Shown piece after piece: positions 10,469-59,533 of a stretch of DNA of 64,000 nt. Source of the DNA: Promicromonospora soli (lineage in GTDB: Bacteria; Actinomycetota; Actinomycetes; Actinomycetales; Cellulomonadaceae); NCBI RefSeq assembly GCF_014653785.1, contig NZ_BNAS01000008.1, forward strand, positions 98,437 to 162,436, given 5' to 3'. Made by a program: the position numbers and the translations under genes. How positions within the stretch are numbered: position 1 is the first letter of the stretch; every line of letters starts with the position of its first letter. The notes beneath the pieces are model-generated. The model saw only the letters and a list, made by a program, of their open reading frames with translations. It made no database searches and was not told the DNA's origin.

Positions 10469-12631
10469 TCAGCTCCAGGGGAGAACGCTCTCGAACGATT
10501 CCCAGAGCGAGTCCCGAACGTCCTCGGTGGTGTCCTGGACGCCCTGCTCGATGTCGTCCTGGAGCTGCTCCCGCTGCTGCTCGAAGGAGACCCGGGCGTC
10601 CTCCGTGACCTGCTGCGCGTAGCTGACCACACCCTGCACCGCGATCACGATCACCCACACCACGACGACCAGCCAGAACGGCCAGGTGCGTCCGCTGCGG
10701 CGCGAGCGGACCGCCCGCACGAGGTTCACGATCGCGGCGGTCACGATGCCGAGCAGCGGGATCGACAGCTCTGCCAAGCGCGGCGTCCACACCGGGTCGA
10801 CGCCCAGCACGGACACCCCCAGGTCGCCGAGCGCCGCGAACAGCGGCAGCGCGGCCGCGCTGGGCATCTCGGCGAAGCCAGGGATCAGGCGCACCAGCTG
10901 GTAGACCGCCACGGCGAGCAGCAAGCGGGGGATCCAGCCGATGATCGCCGCCACAGCCCCCGCGCCCCGGCCGGAGGCGCGGTCCTTTGTCTCGCGGTCC
11001 TTGGCAGCGGGGGCCTCCCGCTCGTCGCGGCGCGGCTGGGACCCAGTCGGCAGGGGCGGCGTCGGCGGCTGCGTGCCTACTACGGGCTGCGGCGCCGTGG
11101 TGGGCATCGGTCGCGTACCCGGCGGCGGGCCCGGGCGGAACGCCGGCGCGACCTGCGTGACCCGCTGGTTGGTGACGGGCATGGGCTGCGCCGGGCCGCC
11201 GGCCTGTCGCCGGGGCGCGACCGGCGTCGAAGGGACGCCGGGGAGCGGAAGGCCGTGGCGCTGCCGATAGCTGGTCCAGCCCTCGAACGTGTCCGGGTAG
11301 CCCTCGGGCGTGAAGGCAGGGGCCCAGCGCATCGCGGCCCACAGGTAGTCCTTGATCTCGGCGGGCGCGCGCCCGCCCGCCCGCTGCGGCCCGACGGCGG
11401 CCAGGTACACGGAGATGACATCCTCCGCGGCGCCGTCGAACCCGTCGGCGTGCACCTGGTGCAGGCGGCCCATGAGCTGCTGGTCGTAGACCAGGTTGGT
11501 GATGGGCTCGCCCTGCCGCACCGGGTTGGTCGCGAGCACGCTGGTGGGCGCGACGGTGGCCGCGGACGTCCCGACGCCGGTCATCACCTCGGTGACGAGC
11601 CCGCGCTCGGTGCTGGTGGTGCCTGCGGCGGCGAGCAGCGCAGTGTCGAGCAGTGCCGTATCGAGCCCGCCGCTGGTGGCGAGCTGGGCCACGGTGCGGA
11701 TGAGGTTGTGCAGCGGCGGGCGGTTCTCCGGCTGGTGCCGCGTCATGGCCAGGACGAGCGGCAGCAGCCGCTGGTCGACAGGTCCGACGTCGGCCGCCGT
11801 CAGGTCGCGGCCCACGAAGTTGAGGTCGTTGGGCAGCTCACCCGTCGCGAGGAAGACCAGCAGCAGGCCCAGGCTGTACACGTCGGAGCGGGCGTGCGGC
11901 TTGCGCACGAACAGCTCGGGCGCCATGTACGAGATGGTGCCCGCCGCGTGTGTCGAGGTGGTCGTACCGTGCCCCTTGGCGATGCCGAGGTCGATGAGCA
12001 CGTACCGGTCGGGCGCGGCGATGATGTTGGCCGGCTTCACGTCCCGGTGGAGGAAGCGCTCCTCCTGGAGCACGGCCAGGGCGTCGAGCACGTCGGCCGC
12101 CACGCGCAGCACGTCGCGCACCGGCAGCGGTCCTTCCGCGGCCACGCGCTGAGCGAGGGTGGGCCCCGGCACGAGCTCCATGGCGAACCAGGCCGTCGGT
12201 GCCTGCAGGTCGGCCGCGACGAGCTGCGGGAACCCGCGTCCGGCCAGCCGCTCCAGCAGCGCGGCCTCACCGATGAACCGGTCCAGCGTGCCCCGCTCGT
12301 TGTTGGTCAGCACCTTGATCGCGACCTCGCCGCCCTGCCCCATGGCGCGGTACACGTGCGCGAACCCGCCGTGGCCGAGCGACTCGCCCAGCTGGAACGG
12401 GCCGAGGATCTCGCCCGTGGCGGGGATGCGGGGCGCGGAGGGGGGCCCGACCGCCGGCCCGACCGGCGTGACCGCGTGCCCCGCCGCACCCGCGGGCAGG
12501 ACGACCTTCGTCGGCGTCGGGACCACCCGCGTGGGCGGGGGTGGCGGTGGCGCGACGGCGGTCTGGTCGCCACCCTGACCCGGCTGGCCGGTAGGGCGTG
12601 CAGCCGTGATGCGGGCGGTCTCGTCGGACAA
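10469..12631 (-). CDS. Membrane-anchored Ser/Thr protein kinase
   Basis: This 720-residue Hanks-type kinase has a Pro-rich N-terminus to about residue 70. It then shows G-loop 'LGHGGFAHVY' (84-94), Lys106 in 'VAIKVL', HRD at 195-197, DLG at 214-216 in place of DFG, and APE at 237-239. The C-lobe ends near residue 330. A variable region and a Pro-rich linker lead to a C-terminal module of three hydrophobic segments starting '[20 protein letters not shown]', plus a glutamine/glutamate-rich tail. That module is shared with the next gene upstream. There are no PASTA repeats. The start is TTG (12631) with GAGGAG upstream. It probably phosphorylates its neighbour and other cell-envelope or division proteins. 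Confidence 0.92.
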   Translation of the reverse strand: MSDETARITAARPTGQPGQGGDQTAVAPPPPPPTRVVPTPTKVVLPAGAAGHAVTPVGPAVGPPSAPRIPATGEILGPFQLGESLGHGGFAHVYRAMGQGGEVAIKVLTNNERGTLDRFIGEAALLERLAGRGFPQLVAADLQAPTAWFAMELVPGPTLAQRVAAEGPLPVRDVLRVAADVLDALAVLQEERFLHRDVKPANIIAAPDRYVLIDLGIAKGHGTTTSTHAAGTISYMAPELFVRKPHARSDVYSLGLLLVFLATGELPNDLNFVGRDLTAADVGPVDQRLLPLVLAMTRHQPENRPPLHNLIRTVAQLATSGGLDTALLDTALLAAAGTTSTERGLVTEVMTGVGTSAATVAPTSVLATNPVRQGEPITNLVYDQQLMGRLHQVHADGFDGAAEDVISVYLAAVGPQRAGGRAPAEIKDYLWAAMRWAPAFTPEGYPDTFEGWTSYRQRHGLPLPGVPSTPVAPRRQAGGPAQPMPVTNQRVTQVAPAFRPGPPPGTRPMPTTAPQPVVGTQPPTPPLPTGSQPRRDEREAPAAKDRETKDRASGRGAGAVAAIIGWIPRLLLAVAVYQLVRLIPGFAEMPSAAALPLFAALGDLGVSVLGVDPVWTPRLAELSIPLLGIVTAAIVNLVRAVRSRRSGRTWPFWLVVVVWVIVIAVQGVVSYAQQVTEDARVSFEQQREQLQDDIEQGVQDTTEDVRDSLWESFESVLPWS

Positions 12632-12708
12632 ACTCAGGGCTCCTCAGCAGCGCACCGGAACTTCCGGGTGACCTGAGAAACGCTATCAGCGTCCGCGCCC
12701 GGACGGAG

Positions 12709-13860
12709 TTATCCGTTGCCGCCCGGCAGGGCGTCCTCGAGCTGCTCGGTGATGCCGTCGGTCGCGTTCTGCTTGGCGTCCTCGACGCCCTGCTCGACCT
12801 CCTGCTCGACGGACTCCTTGGCGTCCTGCTTGGCGTCCTCGATCTCCTGGTCCACCGTGTTCTGGAGGTCCTGCTTCACGTTCTCGGTGGCGTCCTGGGC
12901 GTATCCGATGACACCGCCGACGGCGAACACCACTATCCACGCGACGATCGCCAGCCCGTAGGGCCAGATCGACAGGGACGTGTTCAGCGACCGGATCGTG
13001 TTGAGCAGGCCCGCGAGCAGGATGCCGAGCACGGGGATCGTCAGGTTGGCGGCCTGGTCGGACCACTCCGGGTTGAGGTTGAGCATCGCCAGCACGCCGT
13101 CGCCGATCCCGCGGAACAGCGGGAACTGCGAGGCGTCCGGCATGACGTCGAACCCGGGGATCAGCCGGACCAGCTGGTAGACGCCGAGCGCGAGCAGCAA
13201 CCGCGGGATCCAGGCCAGGACGGCGCCGGCCACCGAACCGCCCGCGCCCGAGTCGTCGTCCCGGTCGCGGTCACGGCGCGGCGGCGTCGGCTGGGCTGCC
13301 CGCGGGCCAAAGCCCTGGTCAAAGGGGTTGGGCGGGCCCTGCTGCTGGCCCTGCTGACCGTAGCCCTGCTGCCCTGGCTGGCCGTAGCCAGGCTGCTGAC
13401 CGTAGGCCTGAGCCGGCTGGCCGTACCCGGGCTGCTGACCGTAGCCCTGATGGCCCGGCTGGCCGTAGGCGGGCTGCTGCCCGTAGCCCTGCTGCCCGTA
13501 GCCGGGCGCCTGCACCTGCGTGGGCTGCTCGGTCTCGAACGGGCGGAACGGCCGCGCGGGCGGCGGCGTCGCGGACCGGTAGTCGCGCTGGGCCATCCCC
13601 GAGGGCGGCAGCACCTGGGTCTGCTCGTCGACGGCGGAGGACCCGCCCGGCGGCGGCATGACCTGGGTCCGCTCGTCGATGCCGTCGTCCTGGTTCTCGG
13701 GGGCCCACTGACCGGCTGCCTGGCGAGCCTGTATCGCATCCATCCGCTGCGTCGCGGCATACGATGACGGGGCGCCGGGCTGTCCCGGGCGAGCGGGCTG
13801 CCGCTGGTTCTGCGTCGGGTCGGCCGCCGGAGGAATACGGCGGGTGGGCTCGTCGGACAA
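12709..13860 (-). CDS. Membrane protein sharing the kinase's C-terminal module; GYGQQ repeats and TQV motifs
   Basis: This 383-residue protein is of unknown function. Residues 60-116 hold three acidic-Thr motifs (DERTQVM at T65, DEQTQVL at T81, EQPTQVQ at T114). Residues 119-175 are a low-complexity run of [11 protein letters not shown] repeats. Residues 213-320 contain three hydrophobic segments beginning '[20 protein letters not shown]', paralogous to the adjacent kinase's C-terminus. Residues 322-375 form an E/D/Q/K-rich coiled-coil tail. The start is TTG (13860) with GAGGAG upstream, the same configuration as the kinase gene 78 bases downstream. The Thr motifs resemble actinobacterial STPK acceptor sites, so it may be the kinase's substrate and partner. 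Confidence 0.8.
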
Positions 13861-14025
13861 GCGGAGGCTCCTCGGTTGTGGTCCCGGTTTCGACACCTGT
13901 TTGCGCGAGAACCTACCAGGTGGGGTGAATGCCCCGTTGGGGTGGCCAGGCGGACGATCATGTCCGACCCTTGCTTCGGGGGTGAACCACGCGATGCCGC
14001 TTACCAGGAACTTCGGAGGAAACGC

Positions 14026-15666
14026 ATGAGCTCTGACACCGTGCCCCGCTGGCCTCGGATCGACGCGATCGTCCGGGAAGACGGTTCCGGCGAGGTGACG
14101 ATCGACGGGACGTTCCACCCCATCGCCACGGGGAGCCTGGAAGAGGCGCGCGTCGAGGTGTTGCGCCGGGTGACGGAGAACGCGGCGATGGTCGGTCGGC
14201 CCGTGCGGGCCTCCGCCACCGGTCCCGAGGGGCTCTGGAACCTGATCGTGCATCCGGACGGCACGGTGGTGCCGGAGGAGGACGAGATCGAGCCACAGCC
14301 TTCCCCGGCGCAGTCCTCGCCGATGCCGGCCCCGGCGTTCGACGGCGTGCCGGTCGCGGACCTGCCCCCGGCCGGCGAGCCCACGGCGGCGGACCCGATC
14401 TCTGGTGCCGGCGTCGCGAGCGCCGTCGGCACCGACGCTCCTGGCTCCGCCGTCGAGGTCGACCCGGATGAGACGGTGCGCCGCGCCCCGCGTACGCCTG
14501 AGGTGCCGGACGTCGCGGCGTCGCCGGCGGACGGGGCGGTACCTCCCGGGGCCTCGGCCGACGTCGCCGACCGGGTGCGCGAGAACGCGGCGAAGAGCCT
14601 GCCGGGCAGCGCGACCGGCAAACTGTCCCTCGCGAACCCCGTGTCAGGGCCCGTGACCCCGGCGGCCGGGAACGGCAGCTCGGGCAGCCTGTCCGCACCG
14701 CCGTCGGGCCCGGTGCAGGGGACCGAGGACGGCCCTCGCTCGCGCCGCGAGACGCGGCAGTCGTTCCTCACGCACCAGCAGGACGAGGACCCGGCGACGC
14801 GTGGCTTCCGCGGGATGCTGACCCGCATGGGGCTCCGGGTCGGTCCGAGCGAGTCGGAGCGCGCCGAGCGAGCCGACGAGCGCGCGGTGAGCCAGCACTG
14901 GCCCGGCCCGCGCACCATCTCGATCGTGAACGGCAAGGGCGGCGCGGGCAAGACGCCGTCGACGGTGCTGCTCGCCGCGGTCTTCGCGCAGTTCGGCGGC
15001 GCGGGCGTGGTGACGTGGGACAACAACCAGACGCGCGGCACTCTTGGCTGGCGCACCGAGCAGGGTCCGCACGAGTCCACGCTGCTGGACCTGCTGCCGC
15101 AGACCGACCGCCTCCTGGGCCCGTCCGCGCAGGCCGCCGATCTCGCGCGGTACGTGCACCACCAGACGCGCGACCGGTTCGACGTGCTGCGGTCCAAGCC
15201 GATCGCCATGGCGAACGAGCAGCGGATCAAGCCGCAGGACGTGGACGCCATCCACTCCGTGCTGTCGAAGTACTACCGGATGATCCTCATCGACTCCGGC
15301 AACGACGAGTCCGATCCCATGTGGCAGCGGATGATCGACCTGACCGACCAGCTGGTGGTCGCCACCACGACCCGCGACGACCACGCGGAGGCCGGGGCGC
15401 TGTTGCTGGAGGCGCTCGCGACCCGGGACGGGCGGTCGGCGTACCTGGCGCAGCAGGCCGTGGTGGTGGTGAGCCAGGCCGACCAGAAGGAGTCCCTCAG
15501 CGAGCTGGAGAAGGTCGCCGACGGGTACCGGTCGCTGGCTCGCGAGGTGGTCACCATCCCGTTCGACCCGGCGATGGTCGACGGTCACCTGCGGTACGGC
15601 GCGCTGCGCCAGGAGACGCGGCGCGCCTGGCTCGGCGCGGGCGCGGCGGTGGCCGGCGGCCTGTGA
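14026..15666 (+). CDS. ParA/MinD-like P-loop ATPase, copy 1
   Basis: This 546-residue protein has a conserved N-terminal domain (1-85, '[20 protein letters not shown]' to '[10 protein letters not shown]') and a long Pro/Ala/Gly linker. A basic segment '[10 protein letters not shown]' follows, then a C-terminal ATPase with Walker A '[11 protein letters not shown]' (302-312), '[13 protein letters not shown]' (331-343) and Walker B-like 'MILIDSGND' (419-427). It resembles the deviant-Walker ATPases that position DNA or secretion machinery (ParA, MinD, T7SS EspI), but no ParB or ESX genes adjoin it. ATG 14026 follows CGGAGGA at six bases. A close paralogue lies at 18395-19933 on the other strand. 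Confidence 0.82.
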
Positions 15667-15670
15667 GCCG

Positions 15671-15703
15671 CTGACCGGCCCCGCCCGCGGCGGGGCCGGT
15701 CAG
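15671..15703. terminator. Bidirectional terminator hairpin
   Basis: Perfect 13-base arms ctgaccggccccg (15671-15683) and cggggccggtcag (15691-15703) flank a 7-base loop. The hairpin sits between two convergent genes and overlaps the last codon region of the minus-strand gene. There is no long T-run, as is common in high-GC actinobacteria. Confidence 0.7.
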
Positions 15704-16524
15704 CCCGGGAAGACCGCGACGATCTGGTTCCAGACCGACATGGTGTCGTAGCCCATCTCGTCCAGCAGCGCCCAGACGACGCCGACGATCGCGTACAGCG
15801 ACACCGGGATGAGGACGATCCACTCGCGTACCGAGCCGGCGTCGCCGAGGATCGGTAGCGAGAGGTTGCCCCCGTACTTCCAGATCATGTCGAGCTCGAT
15901 GCCGCGCCCGTCGCGCATCCAGCCGGGGGACCGGAACTTCAGGGGCCACAGCAGCGGCACGCCGGCGGTCGTGATCAGGTCGCCGAGGATGTGCACCACG
16001 CAGCCGAGCGCCACGCTGAACGGCATCCAGAACCACTCCTCGGGTGCGAAGACCGCGATGAGGACCGCCAGCGTGATGGACGTGGTCCAGGGCAGGAGCT
16101 TCGTGTCCCGCGTGATCTTGAGCGCCTTGAGGGCGAACGCGACGAGCAGCACGCACATGATGCCCGGGCCGATGAGGATCGACCCGATCTCCTCGTTGCC
16201 CGTGTCGATGCTCAGCAGGCTGAGGCCCCACGCGATCGCAGTGAACACCGCGACGCCGAGGATCGAGTGGGTGCCCTTGCGGTGCCCGCCCGAGACGGTC
16301 TCGATGCCCTTGACCACGACGTCCGAGACCGGGGACAGCGAGTTGGCGATGGTGCCGGAGTGATGGTCGGCGTCGGGCAGCAGCGCGGCGCCCGCGCAGA
16401 CGAGGGCTCCCGCGATGACACCGGTGTTCGTCACCCCCTCGTACCAGCCGAAGGCGATCGGCGTCGATGCGGTGACTGCGACCCAGGCTGCGGCTCCCGT
16501 CGCGGCGTGGTGGCCTCCCATCAT
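15700..16524 (-). CDS. YdjM-type metal-dependent membrane hydrolase
   Basis: This 274-residue multi-spanning membrane protein of the YdjM/DUF457 type has the family motif 'GALVCAGAALLPDADHHSGTIANSL', 'GGHRKGTHSILGV' (HRxxTHS-like) and 'LGCVVHILGDLITTAGVPLLWP' (HxxxD). These His and Asp residues form the proposed metal site. The E. coli homologue is SOS-linked, but no LexA box is evident here. Hydrophobic segments alternate with these motifs through the whole length. The start is ATG; an in-frame second ATG follows at once. Confidence 0.82.
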   Translation of the reverse strand: MMGGHHAATGAAAWVAVTASTPIAFGWYEGVTNTGVIAGALVCAGAALLPDADHHSGTIANSLSPVSDVVVKGIETVSGGHRKGTHSILGVAVFTAIAWGLSLLSIDTGNEEIGSILIGPGIMCVLLVAFALKALKITRDTKLLPWTTSITLAVLIAVFAPEEWFWMPFSVALGCVVHILGDLITTAGVPLLWPLKFRSPGWMRDGRGIELDMIWKYGGNLSLPILGDAGSVREWIVLIPVSLYAIVGVVWALLDEMGYDTMSVWNQIVAVFPG

Positions 16525-16571
16525 GGTGGTGTGCGCTCCAGTTCCCGGGTCTCCCCGATTCGGCAGATAAA

Positions 16572-16594
16572 GCTGACAGGTACCGCTGACAGAT
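16572..16594. promoter_or_regulatory. Direct repeats upstream of the YdjM-type gene
   Basis: gctgacaggt (16572-16581) and gctgacagat (16585-16594) repeat with a 13-base period. A partial third copy, reading ATCTGC on the minus strand, follows toward the gene. They lie 48-70 bases before the minus-strand start at 16524 and may be binding half-sites for an unidentified regulator. Confidence 0.4.
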
Positions 16595-16611
16595 ATGGCT
16601 TGTTTTGACCC

Positions 16612-16634
16612 GGTTCGTCCTGGCCGGACGAAAC
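16612..16634. terminator. Probable terminator hairpin downstream of GNAT gene
   Basis: ggttcgtcc and ggacgaaac form an imperfect stem (one bulged A) around a short loop. It lies beyond the 3' end of the minus-strand GNAT gene at 16751. Confidence 0.4.
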
Positions 16635-16750
16635 CCTAGCGTGGGCCACCCACAATCGCGTCGGCAGCGTGTGGGCAGGGCAGAGCCAGGGCAGGCCAGG
16701 GGAAGTGAAGCAGGGGAGCGCGGTGAGATGAGGGAGGGCGCGCCGAGCGG

Positions 16751-17239
16751 TCAGGCGCCCGTCACGTACGCGTAGTGATGGAAGTGCTGGTCGCGCACGA
16801 AGCCCTCCGACTCGTACAGCCCCTGGGCGGCGACGTTGTCCCACGCGGTGGCCAGCGAGACACGGATGGCGCCGGCATCCTTGGCGCGGCGGCACGTCTC
16901 CTGCACCAGTGCGCGCGCGGCGCCCGTCCCGCGCGCGGCGGGCGAGACGAACAGGTCGTTCAGGACCCACGACCGGCTCAGGCTTACGGACGACCAGGTG
17001 GGGTAGCTCTGCGCGAACCCGACCAGCTCGTGGCCGGCGGCCGAGCCCTCGGGCTCGTCGCCCTCGGGGCTCAGCACCGCCACCAGCAGCACGCTGTCGC
17101 CGGCGTCGCGGCGGGCGAGCAGATAGGCGCGTGCTTCGGCGTCGGGCACATACTGCTCGTAGAAACGGAGGTACTGACGGAACAGGTCGACCACAGCATC
17201 GACGTCGTCGTCGTTCGCGGGGCGCACATCAACAGACAC
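16751..17239 (-). CDS. GNAT family N-acetyltransferase
   Basis: This 162-residue acetyltransferase has motif A 'VLNDLFVSPAARGTGAARALVQETCRRAKDAGAIRVSLATAWDN' (ARGTGAA is the CoA loop) and the C-terminal 'AAQGLYESEGFVRDQHFHHYAY', a standard GNAT end. The acceptor is unknown. The start is GTG preceded by a GCGAG-like weak ribosome-binding site. It is divergent from the flavin-dependent oxidoreductase across about 80 bases. Confidence 0.87.
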   Translation of the reverse strand: MSVDVRPANDDDVDAVVDLFRQYLRFYEQYVPDAEARAYLLARRDAGDSVLLVAVLSPEGDEPEGSAAGHELVGFAQSYPTWSSVSLSRSWVLNDLFVSPAARGTGAARALVQETCRRAKDAGAIRVSLATAWDNVAAQGLYESEGFVRDQHFHHYAYVTGA

Positions 17240-17320
17240 CTCGCGATCATGTCAGGCCGGAGGGGGTCGGCGCCATGACCTCTCGGAACATGCCGGCCCC
17301 CGGAACAGTTGACGGATGCG

Positions 17321-18382
17321 ATGAACACCCAGCCACGCTTGTCCGTCCTTGACCTCGTGCCCGTCCGTTCGGGCCAGACCAGCGCCCAGGCCCTGTCGGC
17401 CTCGCTCGACCTCGCGGCGCTCGCCGACCGCCTCGGTTTCGAGCGTTACTGGTTCGCGGAGCACCACAACATGGCAGCGGTGGCGGCGTCGTCGCCGCCG
17501 GTCATGATCGCGGCGGCCGCGGCGCGCACGTCCCGCATCCGCGTGGGATCGGGCGGCGTGATGCTGCCGAACCACGCCCCGCTCGTGGTGGCGGAGCAGT
17601 TCGCGGCCCTGGAGGCCGTCGCGCCCGGCCGGATCGACCTCGGCATCGGCCGCGCCCCGGGCAGCGACCCGGTGGTCACGTCCCTGCTGCGCGCCACCGG
17701 TCCGACGGCGGACGTTGACCGGTTCCCGCAGCACGTCACCGACATCCTGAGCCTGATGGGGCCCGACGGCGCCCGCCTGCGCCTGGTCTCGGGCGACATC
17801 TACGACGTGCGGGCCACGCCCGCCGCCGGGAGCGTCCCGACGGTGTGGCTGCTCGGCTCCAGCGACTACTCGGCGCGCCTCGCCGCGGAGCTCGGGCTGC
17901 CGTACGTGTTCGCGAACCACTTCTCCGGGCAGGGCATGGACCAGATCCTCGCCCTGTACCGGGACGGGTACCACTCCTCGGCGGAGCACCCGGAGCCGCG
18001 CACGTTCCTCACGGCCAACGCGGTCGTCGCGCCGACGTCGGACGAGGCGCACGACCGCGCCCTGCCGCAGCTGCGGCAGATGGCCCGCCTGCGGTCCGGC
18101 CAGAAGCTGGGCGCGCTCGAGACGGTCGAGGAGGCGTTGCGCGCAACGGCCGACGAACCGGCCGACGGAATGCTCGCCCAGTCGATCGAGGCGATGCGGG
18201 CGCGCTGGCTGATCGGCGACGCCGACCAGGTGGCGACCGAGGTGCGCGGCCTGGCCGAGCGGCACGGCGTCGAGGAGGTCATGCTCGTCCCGGTCGCCGG
18301 CTCCCGCGACAGCGAGCCGCTGGACGCGACGTTCGGCCGGGCGCAGACGCTGGAGCTCCTAGCTGCCGCCCTCACCCGCTGA
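17321..18382 (+). CDS. LLM class flavin-dependent oxidoreductase
   Basis: This 353-residue TIM-barrel flavin (FMN or F420) oxidoreductase of the bacterial luciferase-like family begins 'LSVLDLVPVRSGQTSAQAL'. It contains 'YWFAEHHNMAAVAASSPPVMIAAAAART', 'IRVGSGGVMLPNHAPLVVAEQFAALEA' and 'GRIDLGIGRAPGSDP'. This matches the MsnO8-like subgroup of short LLM proteins. ATG 17321 was chosen; an in-frame TTG four codons earlier is possible. The substrate is unknown and no pathway neighbours are present. Confidence 0.87.
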   Translation: MNTQPRLSVLDLVPVRSGQTSAQALSASLDLAALADRLGFERYWFAEHHNMAAVAASSPPVMIAAAAARTSRIRVGSGGVMLPNHAPLVVAEQFAALEAVAPGRIDLGIGRAPGSDPVVTSLLRATGPTADVDRFPQHVTDILSLMGPDGARLRLVSGDIYDVRATPAAGSVPTVWLLGSSDYSARLAAELGLPYVFANHFSGQGMDQILALYRDGYHSSAEHPEPRTFLTANAVVAPTSDEAHDRALPQLRQMARLRSGQKLGALETVEEALRATADEPADGMLAQSIEAMRARWLIGDADQVATEVRGLAERHGVEEVMLVPVAGSRDSEPLDATFGRAQTLELLAAALTR

Positions 18383-18394
18383 CCCAACGGGCGG

Positions 18395-19933
18395 TCAGAA
18401 GCCTCGGGCCACCGACGCGCCCGCCGCGAGCCACGCGCGGCGGGTGGTCGGCCGGAGCGAGCGGTACACGAGCTGACCGTCCACCATGGCCGGGTCGAAC
18501 GGGATGGTGACCACCTCGCGCGCCAGCGAGCGGTAGCCCTGCGCGACCCGGCGCAGGTCGGCGGGAGTCGCCTTGGGGTCGGACTGGCTGACGACGACCA
18601 CCGCCTTCCGCGCCAGCTCCGCCATGTGCTCCCCGCGGCTCGCGAGCGCCTCCAGGAGCAGCGCGCCCGCCTCGGCATGGTCGTCGCGGGTGCTGGTGGC
18701 GACGACGAGCTGGTCGGTGTGGTCGATCATGCGCAGCCACATCGGGTCCGACTCGTCGTTGCCCGAGTCGATGAAGATCATCCGGTAGTACTTCGACAGG
18801 ACCGCGTGGATCGCGTCGACGTCCTCGGACGAGATGCGCTGCTCGTGGGCGAGCGCCATCGGCTTGGACCGCAGCACGTCGAACCGGTCGCGCGACTGGT
18901 GGTGGACGAACCATGCGAGGTCGGCCAGCTGCGCCGACGGGCCCAGGAAGTGCTCGGTCTGCGGGATCATGTCGAGCAGGGTGGCCTCGTGCGGGCCCTG
19001 CTCGGTGCGCCAGCCCAGCGTGCCGCGCGTCTGGTTGTTGTCCCACGCGACGACGCCGGAGCCGCCGTGCGAGGAGAACACCGCCGACAGCAGCACCGTG
19101 GCCGGCGTCTTGCCCGCGCCGCCCTTGCCGTTCACTATCGAGATGGTGCGCGGCCCGGGCCAGTGCTGGCTCACCACCTGCTCGTCGGCCCGCTCGGCCC
19201 GCTCGGCCTCGCCCGGTCGCACCCGGAACCCGACCCGCGCCAGCACGCCGCGCATGCCCTGGCTGGCCGGCTCGTCGAGGCGGTCCTGCATCAGGAACGA
19301 GCGGCGGCTGTCACGGCGTGCGCCGTCGGACCCGGCGGCCGGGCCGAAGGGGGACTCTCTGTAGGCGCCGGGTGCGGCCGGTGCGACGCCCTCGATCGGG
19401 TACCCGGGCTGCTCGTACTCGTCCTGGCGCTGACCCTGGGCCGGCTGCCCGAAGGGCGACGACGGCGCTGCGCCGCGGCCCATGACGCTCATCCGCTGGG
19501 GCCCGGCGGGTCCGGCGGGCGGCTGGGCGTCCTGCCCGGAGGTCCGGGTGGGAGCCGGCATCGACACCGGTAGGGGAACCGACATCGGGTCCGGCTGCGG
19601 AGCCGGCGTCTGCTGGGGCACGGCCGGCGCCGGCGCGCTCGGGGCCGTCGCTGCCTGCGTCGCCTGTGCGGCGCCCGCGCCGCCGTCCTGCACCACGCGG
19701 CCGTCCGGGTGGACCGTGAGGCCCGTCGGGCCCTCGGGGCCCTGCGCCTGGACCTCCACGGCCAGCCCGATACTCGCCGAGTACTCCATGATCAGGCGCA
19801 TCACTTCGCTGCGCGCCTCGCCGAGGCTGTTCCGGTAGACCGGCACCATCTGGCCGTTGATCGTCACCCGGCCCGAGCCGTCGTCGCGCACGACCGCATC
19901 GGCACGCGGCCACCCCGTGGTTTCGACGCTCAC
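18395..19933 (-). CDS. ParA/MinD-like P-loop ATPase, copy 2
   Basis: This 512-residue paralogue of the protein at 14026-15666 has the same architecture: N-domain 'GWPRADAVVRDDGSGRVTING' to 'HPDGRVVQDG', a Pro/Gln-rich linker, and basic 'RRDSRRSFLM'. The ATPase has Walker A '[11 protein letters not shown]' (268-278), '[20 protein letters not shown]' and '[15 protein letters not shown]'. The ATPase domains are nearly identical in motif order while the linkers differ. The start is GTG 19933 with GGAGAAGGGGG upstream; further upstream codons lack coding character. It lies on the opposite strand 2.7 kb from copy 1, separated by three unrelated genes. Confidence 0.82.
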   Translation of the reverse strand: MSVETTGWPRADAVVRDDGSGRVTINGQMVPVYRNSLGEARSEVMRLIMEYSASIGLAVEVQAQGPEGPTGLTVHPDGRVVQDGGAGAAQATQAATAPSAPAPAVPQQTPAPQPDPMSVPLPVSMPAPTRTSGQDAQPPAGPAGPQRMSVMGRGAAPSSPFGQPAQGQRQDEYEQPGYPIEGVAPAAPGAYRESPFGPAAGSDGARRDSRRSFLMQDRLDEPASQGMRGVLARVGFRVRPGEAERAERADEQVVSQHWPGPRTISIVNGKGGAGKTPATVLLSAVFSSHGGSGVVAWDNNQTRGTLGWRTEQGPHEATLLDMIPQTEHFLGPSAQLADLAWFVHHQSRDRFDVLRSKPMALAHEQRISSEDVDAIHAVLSKYYRMIFIDSGNDESDPMWLRMIDHTDQLVVATSTRDDHAEAGALLLEALASRGEHMAELARKAVVVVSQSDPKATPADLRRVAQGYRSLAREVVTIPFDPAMVDGQLVYRSLRPTTRRAWLAAGASVARGF

Positions 19934-20098: not shown

Positions 20099-20569
20099 CT
20101 ATGCCGCGCGGGCCGCCCGGTGCCGGATGGCGCGCGCGTACTCCGTGCGCGGGACGTGTGGCGTCACGTAGAGCACCATGCCGGCCTCGGCCGGCGTGCG
20201 GTCCGCCTTGTGCGAGTTGCACGCGTAGCAGGCGGCCACGAGGTTCATCCACGTCGAGGGCCCCCCGCGTGACCGCGGCAGGATGTGGTCCACGGTCTCG
20301 GCCGGGCCGCCGCAGTACCCGCACAGGCCGTCGCGCCGCTTGACGCCCTGCTTGGTGCACGCGGGCGCCCCGCCCGTCTTGTAGAGCCACCGCATCGTGA
20401 CGTACCGGACCAGCCGCAGCACGCGCGGTAAGGGGAACGGCCCGAAGGAGCGGCCGTCGACCGCCTCCTCCACGACCGCGACCTCGCGCACGAGCATGTG
20501 GATGGCATGCCGGACCGATACCCGGTGCAGCGGCTCGTAGCCGGCATTGAGGACTAGGACGTCGGCCAC
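20099..20569 (-). CDS. HNH endonuclease
   Basis: This 156-residue protein begins 'VADVLVLNAGYEPLHRVSVRHAIHMLVREVAVV', characteristic of the actinobacterial HNH family. Its nuclease motif has zinc ligands in 'CGYCGGPAETVDHILPRSRGGPSTWMNLVAACYACNSHKAD': CxxC...DHxxPxSxGG...N...CxxCN. The DH pair and the Asn/Lys residues are the HNH active site. The start is GTG 20569 with GGAAGGAG upstream. Frame extension further upstream crosses the hairpin 20651-20684 and is not favoured. Members are widespread and chromosomal; function in repair or mobile DNA defence is unproven. Confidence 0.88.
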   Translation of the reverse strand: MADVLVLNAGYEPLHRVSVRHAIHMLVREVAVVEEAVDGRSFGPFPLPRVLRLVRYVTMRWLYKTGGAPACTKQGVKRRDGLCGYCGGPAETVDHILPRSRGGPSTWMNLVAACYACNSHKADRTPAEAGMVLYVTPHVPRTEYARAIRHRAARAA

Positions 20570-20650
20570 GGGCCTGCTCCTTCCGGTGAGCTTGTCGTTC
20601 TCGGTTGTCGCTGGTCGTTCAGGTGGTGCTGTTCGGCCCCGGGACGACAA

Positions 20651-20684
20651 GAGCCGCCCGGGAACACATCTCCCGAGGCGGCTC
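20651..20684 (-). terminator. Hairpin in the HNH gene leader (attenuator or terminator)
   Basis: gagccgcc...ggcggctc with an inner cggga/tcccg (one bulge) gives a strong stem, followed on the minus strand by TTGTCGT. It lies between the 44-aa ORF and the HNH start. A second stem tccgg/ccgga (20696-20710) lies just before it, next to the small ORF's stop. Confidence 0.6.
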
Positions 20685-20710
20685 ACGTTCACTGGTCCGG
20701 CAGAACCGGA

Positions 20711-28858: not shown

Positions 28859-30877
28859 TCAGAATGGTGGTTCGTCCGGATCGGCCGACGTGGTCGAGCC
28901 GGGCGGGTCGGTTGGGTTCGTGGGGACTGCGCCGGGTTCGATGGTGGTGGTGTAGGGGCGCGGCAGGCGTTGTCCGGTCAGGGCGCGGAGGGTGAGGTCG
29001 TGGCTGGTTTCGGGGTCGATCTGCTCGATCTCGGCGTGGGTGTCCAGCACCGTGGGTTGCCGCGTGTGGGTGCGGCCGGCGGGGGTGGTCCAGGTGGTGA
29101 TCCCGGTGTCGGGGTCGCGGACGAGGCGCCAGCCGGCGTGGGTCTTGAGCAGGTGATGCTTGCGGCACAGCGCGTGCAGATTCCGGGCGTTCGTCTGCCC
29201 GTCCCCGCCGGTGTCGCCCTCGCCCTTGTTCTTGCGGTTGTGGTCGAAGGGTTGGATGTGGTCCAGGTCGCACCGGCTCGCCGGGGTGTTGCAGCCCCAG
29301 AGGAAGGTGCAGGTCCGGTCTCTGGCTTCGACGGCGGCGCGCAGGACTTTGCCGGGTTGGTAGGTGGTGGTGGAGTAGTCGGTCAGGATCCCGGTGATCG
29401 GGTCGGTCAGCAGGCGTTGCCAGGTCGCGTCCTGGGCGATCATGCGTGCGGTGTCGGCGGGGATGGGGCCGAACCCGTCCAGGTGCCCGGGCGCGTGGTC
29501 CAGCCCGAGCAGGGCGGTGGCGGGGATGGTGACCCGTACGACCGGCCGGGTCGGCGTGACCCGCACCGGCCGCACGATCTCCTGCACGACTTCCTGCACC
29601 ACAACGCGCTGGACGGGAGCCCGGCCACCACAGCTGCACACGGGTCCCCCCGCACCCTCGGCGCGTGCGCCTTCGTCCCCCTGGGTCTGCGCGCCCGCTT
29701 CGGTCTCGGCGGGCGCGTCGGGCAGGGTGTCGGCGTCGGTGTCGGGGTGGGTGAACCGGTCGGCGGGCAGCAGGCGGCCGGTGATGATTCCGGTCAGGGA
29801 GTCGGCGCGCAGCTGGGCCAGGGTGCGGTCCTCACCGGTGACGTGCCGTAGCTGGTGCGCCATGTCGTCCACCACACCCCACACCGCGGCGGCGTCGGTC
29901 GCGGGCAGGTAGGCCGAGAGCCAGCCCATGTCGTTCTCCGCACGGTCCAGCTGCACGCTGCGACGCAGGGCTTCGGCCCGCGCGGTCTCGGCGGCGCCGT
30001 GCCGGTTCTTGGCGAACGCAAGCATCCGGGCCTGCAGCCACTTCCAGGTCCTGTGTGGCGCCTGCGGCAGGAACCGGGCGATCGCCTCGGCCCGCTCGGC
30101 GATCGTGAGCTGGGTCGCGGAGCGCAGCAGGGTGTGCGCCTTGCGGGCGTCGATCCGCCCCGCGAGCAGGGCAGTGATCACTGTGGGGTGCTGGGCGCCG
30201 GACTCGGCCCGGACCACGACCTCGGTGGCCTCCGGCTCGGTCACCACGAGCTCACCGGTGACCTGCCCGACCAGGGAGTTGTGCGCCAGCGGGTGGGTCT
30301 CCCGGGCGGCACGTTCGGCCACCACCAGGGCCTGCATCCCTGTCGCCCAGGACTGCAGGCGCCCGGCCGCGACCACCAGGTCGCCCAGGGCGTCGTCCGA
30401 CAGGTCGCCCAGCACATCCGAACCCCGATCACCGGCACAGTCACCGCCGCCGTCGTCCGGGCCGCCGCCCGGGGCGTCGTCCAGGTTGCCGTCCAGGTCG
30501 ATGGCCTCGGCGACCACCCGCGCCAGCCCCACGCCCGGCACACCCCGCAGTGCCTCCCGCAATACCGTCTCGGGCCACAACACGACCGGCACTCCCGCCG
30601 GCGGCCGGTCCAGCCCAACGCCCGGCCCTGAATCCGGCCCTACGGACGGGTCGGGCTCCTCGACCCACATCGCATTTCGGAACCACGCATCGTCCAGCCA
30701 AGCGCTGTCGTACGACGAGTCCTGGAACGGCCCGCCCGGAGCCAGCACGTTATCGGGCAGCCACCGCACCAGCGTCCCGTCCCGCTCGACCGCCACCCGG
30801 CCATCTCGGGCAGGGTCGTCCAGAAGCCCACTCGGGAGCGCGCCGGCCATACCGTCGTCAGACATTCCATCACGCAT
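28859..30877 (-). CDS. DUF222/HNH endonuclease (13E12-repeat family), intact copy
   Basis: This 672-residue protein has an acidic, variable N-terminus, a helical DUF222 domain (about 130-430, with 'TATQLTIAERAEAIARFLP'-type segments and 'WLSAYLPATDAAAVWGVVDDMA') and a Pro/acidic linker. A C-terminal HNH nuclease follows: 'CDLDHIQPFDHNRKNKGEGDT', then 'NARNLHALCRKHHLLKTHAGW'. The C-terminus continues 'TTWTTPAGRTHTRQPTVLDTH' to 'DEPPF'. Such genes occur in many copies in actinobacteria and resemble mobile or selfish repeats. ATG 30877 has GAGGAGG upstream. A disrupted second copy is at 57692-59533. Confidence 0.88.
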   Translation of the reverse strand: MRDGMSDDGMAGALPSGLLDDPARDGRVAVERDGTLVRWLPDNVLAPGGPFQDSSYDSAWLDDAWFRNAMWVEEPDPSVGPDSGPGVGLDRPPAGVPVVLWPETVLREALRGVPGVGLARVVAEAIDLDGNLDDAPGGGPDDGGGDCAGDRGSDVLGDLSDDALGDLVVAAGRLQSWATGMQALVVAERAARETHPLAHNSLVGQVTGELVVTEPEATEVVVRAESGAQHPTVITALLAGRIDARKAHTLLRSATQLTIAERAEAIARFLPQAPHRTWKWLQARMLAFAKNRHGAAETARAEALRRSVQLDRAENDMGWLSAYLPATDAAAVWGVVDDMAHQLRHVTGEDRTLAQLRADSLTGIITGRLLPADRFTHPDTDADTLPDAPAETEAGAQTQGDEGARAEGAGGPVCSCGGRAPVQRVVVQEVVQEIVRPVRVTPTRPVVRVTIPATALLGLDHAPGHLDGFGPIPADTARMIAQDATWQRLLTDPITGILTDYSTTTYQPGKVLRAAVEARDRTCTFLWGCNTPASRCDLDHIQPFDHNRKNKGEGDTGGDGQTNARNLHALCRKHHLLKTHAGWRLVRDPDTGITTWTTPAGRTHTRQPTVLDTHAEIEQIDPETSHDLTLRALTGQRLPRPYTTTIEPGAVPTNPTDPPGSTTSADPDEPPF

Positions 30878-57691: not shown

Positions 57692-59533
57692 TCAGAACGG
57701 TGGTCGGTCGGGGTCGGCGGGTCGGTTCGGGTCACTCGGTACAGCTCCGGGTTCGGTCTGCCTGTAGCCGCTGGGCAGGCGGCGGCCGGTCAGGGCTCGG
57801 TGGGTGAGGTCGTAGCTGGTGTCGGGGTCGACCTGGTCGATCTCGACGTGGGTGTCCAGCACGGTCGGCGGGCGCGTGTGAGTCCGGCCGGTGGGGGTGG
57901 TTCAGGTCGTGACTCCGGTCTCGGGGTCGCGCACGACGCCCCAGCCCGCGTGGGTCTTGAGAAGGTGATGCCTGCGGCACAGCGGTTGCAGGTTGTCGGC
58001 GCGCGTCTGTCCCGGCCTGCTGGACCCGAGCGCCATGGGGTCGAGGTCATGGTCGAACGGCACGATGTGGTCCAGGTCGTCCCAGTCCGCGGGATGCTCG
58101 CACTGCAGGAAACCGCACGTCTGGTCCCGGGCTGTCACCGCCTGGCGCAGCACTTTGCCGGGCCGGTAGGCCGTGGTCGAGTAGTCGGTCAGGATCCCGG
58201 TGGCCGGGTCGGTGAGCAGGCGCTGCCAGGTCGCGTCGGTGGCGAGGTGCGCGGCGAGATCCGCGGTGACGGGTCCGAACCCGTCCAGGTCGCCGGGCGA
58301 GTCGTCCAGGCCCAGGAGCGTGCTGGCCGGAACGGTAACCCGCACCACGGGCCGGGTAGGCGTCACCCGCACGAGCTGCACCGTTTCCTTGATGACGGGC
58401 GCTCGACCGCCACACGTGCGCACCTGGCCGGTCGTCGTGTGGTCGTCGGCCTCGGTGCTCCTGTCGCTCGTGGCGCCCGGGTCGGTGAATCGGTCGGCGG
58501 GCAGGAGGCGGCCGGTGACGATCCCGGTCAGGCAGTCCGCGCGGAGCTGTCCCAGGTCGCGACCCTCGTCCGGGGTGCGTTGCAGCTGGCGGGCCATGTC
58601 GTCCACGATGCCCCAGACGGCCGCGGCGTCGGCCGCGGGGAGGTAGGCCGACAGCCAGCCCATGTCGTTCTCCGCACGGTCGAGCTGGACGCAGCGGTGC
58701 TGGGCCGCGGCCCGTGCGGCGTCGGCTGCCCCGTGGCGGGACTTGGCGAAGGCGAGCATCCGGGACTGCAACCACTTCCAGGTGCGCCGGGGCGCGTGGG
58801 GCAGGAACCGGGCGATCGCCTCGGCCCGCTCGGCCACGGTCAGGTGGGAGGCGGAGCGCAGCAGGGTATGGGCCTTCCTCGCGTCGATCCGCCCCGTCTC
58901 CAGCGCGGTGATCACGGTGGGGTGCTGCGCGCCGGACTCGGCGCGGACCACGACCTCGGCCGCTTCCGCGCCGGTGACCACCAGCTCGCTGGTGACCTGT
59001 CCCACCAGCGAGCTGTGGGCCAGCGGGCTGGTCTCCCGGGCGGCGCGCTCGGCCACGGCTCGTGCTTGCGTACCGGCCATCCAAGACTGCAGGCGTCCAC
59101 AGGCGGTGACCAGGTCACCAAGTACGTCGTCGGGCAGGTCGCCCAGCAGCTCTGCGTCCGGGCGTGCGGCCTCGGCCACCACCCGCGCCAGCTCAGCACC
59201 GGGGCGGACCGCTCAGCGCCTGCGCACCAGATCAACCGGCCACAGCGCCACCGGGACACCGTCCGGCAGACCGCCAGGCGGCAGACCCGATTCCGCAGGC
59301 CTGTCCAGGCCCGCGATGGTGTCGGGCACCCCGTACGTCGTCCCGCCGAACATCGGACCGCTGAGCATCAGGTCGTCGGGCACATCAGGCACTGCGTGGT
59401 CCGGCACGAGGCGCACCAGCATCCCGTCCCGCATGACCAGCTCCCCAGGGAGCTCGTAGTCCGGGAACGGGTCCTGCGGGAGCGCGCCGTCCAGGAGCAC
59501 GCCCGTCTTGTCGCCAGCTGGTCCTTCCCGCAT
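57692..59533 (-). pseudogene. DUF222/HNH endonuclease gene with two in-frame TGA codons
   Basis: This paralogue of the gene at 28859-30877 keeps one reading frame from ATG 59533 (GAGGAGG upstream) to the stop at 57692, but is interrupted by TGA at 59213-59215 and 57902-57904. Between them a 426-residue stretch carries DUF222 and the HNH motif 'DWDDLDHIVPFDHDLDPMALG' with 'LCRRHHLLKTHAGW'. The second TGA replaces the Trp of 'TTWTTP' in the intact copy; homologous sequence then continues to 'PPF'. No frameshift is seen. It is probably a recent pseudogene; readthrough is an alternative. Confidence 0.85.

Follow-up and report, generated by a model that had tools for sequence, protein, structure and literature searches.

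Does a serine/threonine kinase of Promicromonospora soli work together with the ParA/MinD-like ATPase encoded beside it, and where did that ATPase come from? We explored these questions in a window of 64,000 nucleotides (the whole stretch of DNA analysed), in which a kinase (KIN), a kinase-less membrane paralogue (MEM) and two ATPases (PA1 and PA2) lie close together. ParA/MinD ATPases are general bacterial positioners, and our findings point to a model where an ATPase of a plasmid transfer cluster was captured and now probably works with a lineage-specific Ser/Thr kinase. Beyond the initial annotation of this DNA, the tail shared by kinase and membrane protein is restricted to one lineage, and the ATPases have plasmid relatives.

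KIN (10469..12631, minus strand; 720 residues) is a predicted active Hanks-type Ser/Thr kinase. Its kinase domain (11672-12418) matches Pfam Pkinase with an E-value of 1.2e-29 and looks intact, with the catalytic Lys (K106), the HRDxKxxN motif (D197 in HRDVKPAN) and the DFG-like Asp (D214 in DLG) present and invariant in 10 orthologues. A Thr-rich N-terminus precedes this domain; it is followed by a helical domain of about 80 residues (HD; 11267..11512, minus strand, delimited by alignment and modelled as helical with a pLDDT of about 90), a Pro-rich linker, a membrane module of three hydrophobic segments (10604-10945) and an acidic coil recognizable from the sequence (10472-10603), module and coil together spanning 10472..10945 on the minus strand. 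Assignment to the PknB/Stk1 PASTA kinases was rejected, the match reaching 124.5 bits against a cut-off of 450 bits and covering the kinase part only, with no PASTA match; a place in a defence system was likewise dismissed, PADLOC matches being essentially confined to the kinase domain. No KIN relative was found on plasmids at 1e-30. The neighbouring gene, MEM (12709..13860, minus strand; 383 residues), encodes a TQV-repeat and Gln-rich linker followed by a membrane module and coil as in KIN (12712-13218). The common C-terminal module that had been proposed for the two proteins is borne out by 40% identity over 178 residues (E 9e-43), both tails containing WIPRLLLA, the three hydrophobic segments and the acidic coil. 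Also present are the TTG starts preceded by GAGGAG that had been reported for both genes: the TTG of KIN is conserved in all nine Promicromonospora loci, and MEM orthologues mostly start with GTG. The MEM start was placed at 13860 from homology and the ribosome-binding site, the longest open reading frame (to 14253) running too far.

The membrane module, with a dN/dS of 0.20 in MEM, has no Pfam match, and the C-terminal part of KIN, whose structure model is of moderate quality, gave no usable PDB fold match. Its distribution is narrow (19 of the 150 genomes of the family, from 3 of its 25 sampled genera), which rules out a common, unrelated domain. HD was found in 2 of 396 genomes of the order; in Promicromonospora and Antribacter it is carried by KIN, in Myceligenerans by MEM, which we count in favour of a joint system. 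A second HD copy in the same genome (G000:C8:94075-94311) belongs to another kinase just left of the window. Loop charges fit a kinase inside and a coil outside the membrane, also in keeping with a joint system.

PA1 (14026..15666, plus strand) is a ParA/MinD-superfamily ATPase consisting of an N-terminal domain (14047-14277), a disordered linker and an ATPase domain (14758-15663). Its paralogue PA2 (18395..19933, minus strand), a variably present sister clade, has corresponding N-terminal (19688-19915) and ATPase (18398-19303) domains. As anticipated in the initial annotation, the two proteins are paralogous (56% identity) and share an N-terminal domain, of 77 residues, and ParA-type folds were recovered in a fold match run on PA1 (ParF, FleN, FlhG and MinD; VIA-align, Z about 9-10), the central part of the model being of low confidence. 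By profile, superfamily membership is indicated by PHROG ParA-like (2.8e-10), with Pfam AAA_31 just under the cut-off. Both ATPases carry the P-loop KGGAGKTP, a deviant Walker A (KGGxGKT) with its signature lysine, whose K304, G305, G306, K309 and T310 are invariant across 33 relatives and whose Thr is directly followed by Pro where Ser or Thr is usual. Switch I reads WDNNQ, the Asp standing, in a by-eye comparison, one position off the usual DxD/DxDxQ; this seemingly displaced aspartate may make cycling slow, a point against the reading we prefer. The N-terminal domain, initially described as unknown, indeed has no Pfam match and no convincing known fold by sequence, but it is a recurring module across Actinomycetes. 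We recognised no partner of the ParB or MinE type for PA1 or PA2, which likewise weighs against that reading; the reported lack of ParB in the cluster agrees with the window proteins examined, a part of its open reading frames, among which none was seen. A possible likeness in architecture to EspI/ESX was also considered.

In the phylogeny, PA1 and PA2 form one clade (95/87) nested among ATPases linked to type IV secretion systems (T4SS) of conjugative plasmids. The closest comparison is with ATPases of actinobacterial plasmids such as pNBRC108565a, pS16-2 and pTZC1, which show the same order of N-terminal domain, linker and KGGAGKTP-type ATPase domain, the best of them being about 72% identical to PA1 over the matched parts. 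These plasmid genes belong to T4SS clusters, where an M23/CHAP or lytic enzyme gene often precedes them, and several of the plasmids have a separate ParA. The plasmid relatives are annotated as AAA family ATPase or chromosome partitioning protein ParA. The family occurs on 178 plasmid records, one of them a multidrug-resistance plasmid of Cutibacterium; a phage origin was discarded, being suggested by a single weak record. Unlike the plasmid copies, the chromosomal ones have KIN and MEM alongside and no T4SS genes nearby: loci L003-L017 and the surroundings of PA1 and PA2 contain none of the tested markers, and SCO6880 and VirD4 have no match in this genome. PA1 and PA2 are thus placed, by sequence, as derived from a T4SS-associated subfamily and are not classed as working T4SS components. 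Plasmid linkage of the family is not universal, orphan chromosomal copies occurring in other genera (L026, L036-L039, L042 and L044). A single capture of a transfer-cluster ATPase by the chromosome of a common ancestor of Promicromonospora, Antribacter and Myceligenerans, followed by duplication into PA1 and PA2, is well supported by these relationships.

Is the captured gene then in use? PA1 is under strong purifying selection, its two domains being the most constrained sequences among those measured (dN/dS 0.045 and 0.075); the ATPase domain of PA2 reaches 0.11, and PA2 is missing from several Promicromonospora species. The plasmid ancestry and these losses of PA2 would suit functionless remnants of a decaying integrated conjugative element, an already disfavoured view that the constraint on PA1, its retention across three genera and loci free of any T4SS marker gene tested make very improbable. 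We also think it unlikely that the chromosomal ATPases act on incoming conjugative plasmids, for example by hindering transfer or partition of homologue carriers in a dominant-negative or incompatibility-like manner. Such interference would agree with nearest relatives in transfer clusters, with the lack of the transfer markers SCO6880 and VirD4 in this genome and with the extra partial matches on other contigs of some relatives; against it, PADLOC defence families match none of PA1, PA2 and MEM, and the very strong constraint on PA1, together with its permanent kinase neighbour, suggests a resident role.

That neighbour lies across a short divergent spacer. MEM and PA1 are 165 bp apart (13861..14025, a probable shared regulatory region); the spacer measures 165-168 bp in Promicromonospora and 180-297 bp in Antribacter and Myceligenerans, and its block AACCTACCAGG recurs in Antribacter soli and, with a single mismatch, in A. 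gilvus. In the loci inspected, KIN/MEM and PA1 follow each other with no intervening gene seen, while adjoining junctions are broken in several; this too favours a joint system. Three genes (YdjM-like, GNAT and LLM-type) separate PA1 from PA2, so that the second copy does lie a few genes away, as first described. PA1 is found near the membrane module in 18 of 18 genomes whose assembly allows judgement, which answers the demand for co-occurrence in relatives and speaks for a joint system. The proposed single cluster of kinase, membrane protein and two ATPases holds in part: PA2 is dispensable, which leaves PA1 and KIN, accompanied by MEM or not, as the conserved core. Adjacency weighs little, however, because the entire neighbourhood (RIO, KIN, PA1, YdjM) keeps its order across a single family and goes back to one origin, which we count against our reading. 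The kinase pair and the ATPases could be separate neighbours: KIN would sense the envelope, MEM would serve it as a decoy or scaffold, and the ATPases would do something unrelated, for instance organise the nucleoid or the cell poles. This is a serious possibility, if not the one we favour: RIO and YdjM are syntenic as well, and other genera have such ATPases without KIN, including a distant lineage where one stands beside an ECF sigma factor gene, whereas the adjacency itself has held in every one of the 18 assembled genomes.

Threonine motifs also bear on this choice. The PA1 linker evolves fast yet keeps one invariant threonine island, DETVRR (14467..14484, plus strand), a candidate phosphosite. 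The pattern [DE]TVRR, picked after inspection, occurs in 9 of 9 Promicromonospora orthologues against a shuffled mean of 0.33; outside the genus it is uneven (recognisable in one Antribacter, eroded or absent in others), which counts against our reading. The island resembles the N-terminus of Antribacter KIN (SDETVRLP, SDETVRIP) and Myceligenerans MEM (SDPTVRFTP), and such a motif common to KIN, MEM and PA1 argues against separate systems. The MEM linker repeats TQ[VML]xPP, and its three TQV motifs (13513..13668, minus strand) are candidate phospho-acceptor or FHA-docking sites. In nine MEM orthologues TQV-type motifs number 31 against 0.5 expected from shuffled linkers, a pattern likewise chosen after inspection and partly made of tandem repeats; they are enriched in the KIN N-terminus as well. 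On some plasmids, genes with the phosphothreonine-binding FHA domain adjoin homologous ATPases, in two gene orders, an association again at odds with separate systems. No FHA gene was found near the chromosomal cluster, all FHA matches being on other contigs, which detracts from our reading. A motif scan found no kinase genes beside plasmid ATPases, a crude and weak scan that overlooked the FHA genes too. Overall, the kinase link of PA1 is moderately supported. The early view of a phospho-regulated system without described match thus gains sequence support on its first half, from the PA1 island, the MEM repeats and the plasmid FHA partners, and loses ground on its second, the ATPases matching a conjugation-associated family.

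Our preferred reading, which we rate somewhat short of an even chance, is that captured PA1 works with KIN and MEM as a phosphorylation-controlled positioning system. We favour it because of the nested single origin, the lack of SCO6880 and VirD4, the constraint on PA1, the three-genus module near PA1, the threonine motifs, the plasmid FHA genes and the precedent of MinD. KIN would be anchored through its C-terminal module, kinase inside and acidic coil outside, and would phosphorylate threonine motifs of its own N-terminus, of MEM and of the PA1 linker. The phosphothreonines, or the shared motif, would tether the ATPase to the membrane assembly of KIN and MEM; in an ATP-dependent cycle, PA1 would alternate between being free and being bound to the membrane or a partner, thereby positioning or gating that assembly, and the kinase might tune the coupling on an envelope signal. 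The positioning role of KIN, MEM and PA1 is what we infer from this arrangement. A bolder version, which we regard as doubtful, is that a conjugation ParA-type ATPase was domesticated lineage-wide as the motor of kinase-controlled membrane positioning, with phosphothreonine marks on kinase, twin and ATPase linker replacing the FHA partner of some plasmid homologues. The ATPase has apparently left plasmid transfer and settled permanently on the chromosome beside a kinase, and its linker offers a definite candidate phosphosite. If the reading is true, the locus would be a compact system for studying how phosphorylation steers a ParA-type ATPase, and would suggest that the ATPase of 178 plasmid records is coupled to phosphothreonine signalling.

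Several described systems combine some of these elements. In the PknQ-MupFHA-MupDivIVA system of the Mycobacterium ulcerans plasmid pMUM001, a locally encoded Ser/Thr kinase works with an FHA protein and a scaffold at the cell pole (PMC4238996); our locus is without an FHA protein, and that system is not known to include a ParA-like ATPase. VirC1 and the gonococcal ParA, ParA/MinD-like ATPases of type IV secretion systems, assist conjugation by arranging the relaxosome or the placement of substrates (PMC8716806); our locus holds no relaxase or T4SS, and no VirC2/ParB-like partner was found in it. In Bacillus subtilis, a kinase (PtkA/TkmA) is localised and activated by MinD, which is also in contact with the Hanks kinase YabT (PMC4754617). 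PA1 resembles MinD as an ATPase of the MinD/ParA type, its presumed partner being a Hanks-type kinase of the membrane whose gene lies close by.

On the sequence evidence, the kinase pair KIN and MEM is lineage-restricted, keeps a constant adjacency to the ATPase gene PA1 and carries conserved threonine motifs. KIN (10469-12631, minus strand) encodes a 720-aa Ser/Thr kinase (Pfam Pkinase, 1.2e-29) whose catalytic residues K106, D197 and D214 are intact by sequence and orthologue comparison, and MEM (12709-13860, minus strand) a 383-aa KIN paralogue devoid of the kinase domain. The initial annotation had described a kinase and a membrane protein paired through a common tail, both with TTG starts after GAGGAG, beside two ATPases, and this was confirmed: the C-terminal module shows 40% identity (E 9e-43), and PA1 (14026-15666, plus strand) and PA2 (18395-19933, minus strand) are 56% identical. 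A longer listed MEM ORF, reaching 14253, was rejected as overshooting the true start, placed at 13860 because the ribosome binding site and orthologues support that position. Scripted loop charges of the membrane module are negative for TM1-TM2 and zero to positive for TM2-TM3, suggesting that the kinase lies inside and the coil outside; the acidic coil carries -5 to -15 in the sequences that the script could parse.

The membrane module occurs in 19 of 150 family genomes (3 of 25 genera), and coordinate comparison shows PA1 no more than 4 kb away in each of the 18 genomes that have both on a single contig; the nineteenth, G048, has them on separate contigs. Module and PA1 are both present in every one of the 13 genomes tabulated for Promicromonospora. 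Antribacter has KIN and lacks MEM, and no MEM is called in Myceligenerans salitolerans either. A helical domain of about 80 residues, HD, is part of KIN in Promicromonospora and Antribacter and of MEM in Myceligenerans; of 396 genomes sampled from the whole order, only 2 yielded a match to it. The window belongs to contig 8 of a genome (G000) that resembles Promicromonospora. Just to its left (about G000:C8:93430-95553; L126 7431-9554), a second HD-bearing Ser/Thr kinase, likely a relative of KIN, adjoins a DnaE-type polymerase gene. Transcription of KIN/MEM and of PA1 runs in opposite directions from a common intergenic stretch, 165-168 bp long in Promicromonospora and 180-297 bp in Antribacter and Myceligenerans; its block AACCTACCAGG recurs in Antribacter soli and, with a single mismatch, in A. 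gilvus, and joint control from this stretch is suggested. An HNH endonuclease-like gene (20099-20692) is a conserved neighbour, near the cluster in most relatives. Elsewhere in the window, 672- and 426-aa proteins (28859-30877 and 57902-59182) cluster together in an all-against-all comparison and, at 1e-3, match no Pfam family.

PA1 is evidently under strong constraint, with median dN/dS among nine Promicromonospora loci of 0.045 for the N-terminal domain and 0.075 for the ATPase domain. On the same loci, the KIN kinase domain gave 0.19, membrane modules 0.20-0.30, linkers 0.45-0.67 and four neighbouring genes 0.14-0.40 (LLM 0.14, METC 0.20, YdjM 0.24, RIO 0.40); PA2, computed separately on five true orthologues, gave 0.23 and 0.11. 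PA2 is absent from several Promicromonospora loci, and three whole genomes (G031, G087, G111) hold a single ATPase match each. The ATPase domain has a ParA-type P-loop (KGGAGKTP), and its structural model, of low confidence in the middle, aligns with ParF, FleN, FlhG and MinD at Z of about 9-10. For the N-terminal domain (about residues 8-84) the model, with pLDDT near 95, predicts a helix preceded and followed by three strands; the domain has no Pfam match, and sequence searches found no convincing solved relative. Its profile finds matches in 32 of the 297 genomes sampled within the class. It precedes ATPases, but is also found in proteins with different C-terminal parts, by eye propeller-like and TPR-like at L135, L142 and L148, some near conjugation-type genes.

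Relatives of PA1 occur on 178 records of the plasmid collection. In the first four records inspected and at many other loci the ATPase belongs to a transfer cluster that includes VirD4, SCO6880 or VirB4 genes. An M23/CHAP or lytic enzyme gene usually stands immediately upstream of it or close by, and several of these plasmids encode a separate ParA. In a maximum-likelihood tree of 62 ATPase domains, all 16 PA1 and 6 PA2 of Promicromonospora, Antribacter and Myceligenerans form one clade (95/87), nested among sequences mostly linked to type IV secretion systems. PA2 forms its own clade, Myceligenerans included, which dates the duplication to before Promicromonospora and Myceligenerans, at least, diverged. 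Neither SCO6880 nor VirD4 gave a match when searched for in this genome. Because some orphan chromosomal copies of the ATPase occur elsewhere, its link to plasmids is frequent rather than universal. In other family genera, a distant chromosomal lineage of the ATPase adjoins an ECF sigma factor gene, in many genomes with a further conserved gene alongside (L109-L120). The sequences indicate a single capture of the ATPase. That KIN/MEM and the ATPases are mere neighbours, devoid of a functional link, is the strongest rival explanation, because the surrounding genes are syntenic as well and the capture occurred once.

A phosphorylation link would be consistent with the threonine motifs, whose patterns were picked after inspection and some of whose repeats are tandem copies. 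The PA1 linker, about half identical between species, holds one interior island, [DE]TVRR, with the threonine invariant in 9/9 orthologues; the pattern itself is present in all 9, against a mean of 0.33 in shuffles. The linker's other highly conserved stretch is the end adjoining the ATPase domain. Similar motifs stand at the start of Antribacter KIN (SDETVRLP, SDETVRIP) and Myceligenerans MEM (SDPTVRFTP), and a scan of some 73,000 residues from other called genes did not find a strict form of the pattern; outside Promicromonospora the PA1 motif is uneven. T[QRK][VIML]..P occurs 31 times in MEM linkers of nine orthologues versus 0.5 in shuffles, and 15 versus 0.7 in KIN N-termini. An independent line comes from FHA domains, which are established readers of phosphothreonine (PMC4238996) and occur in neighbours of some plasmid homologues. 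In Miniimonas, the neighbour of the plasmid ATPase homologue combines the N-terminal domain of the ATPase with an FHA domain that exceeds the Pfam cut-off; genes related to it appear on 10 plasmid records, and in some only the first half is kept. At L046 (7100-7927) and in related plasmid genes the fusion lies directly downstream of the ATPase, with shorter versions lacking FHA, and in Gulosibacter an FHA gene comes before the ATPase. The surroundings of the chromosomal KIN/MEM-PA1 locus contain no FHA gene.

The initial interpretation, a phospho-regulated positioning or envelope-organisation system, is supported in part. Overall, we suggest that KIN may phosphorylate itself, MEM and PA1, that phospho-marks or the common motif would couple PA1 to the membrane assembly, and that the ATP cycle of PA1 would position or gate this assembly. 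The nearest precedent is Bacillus subtilis MinD, which both localises PtkA and activates it, and which is in contact with the Hanks kinase YabT (PMC4754617); for a ParA-like ATPase that serves transfer, the precedent is VirC1 (PMC8716806).
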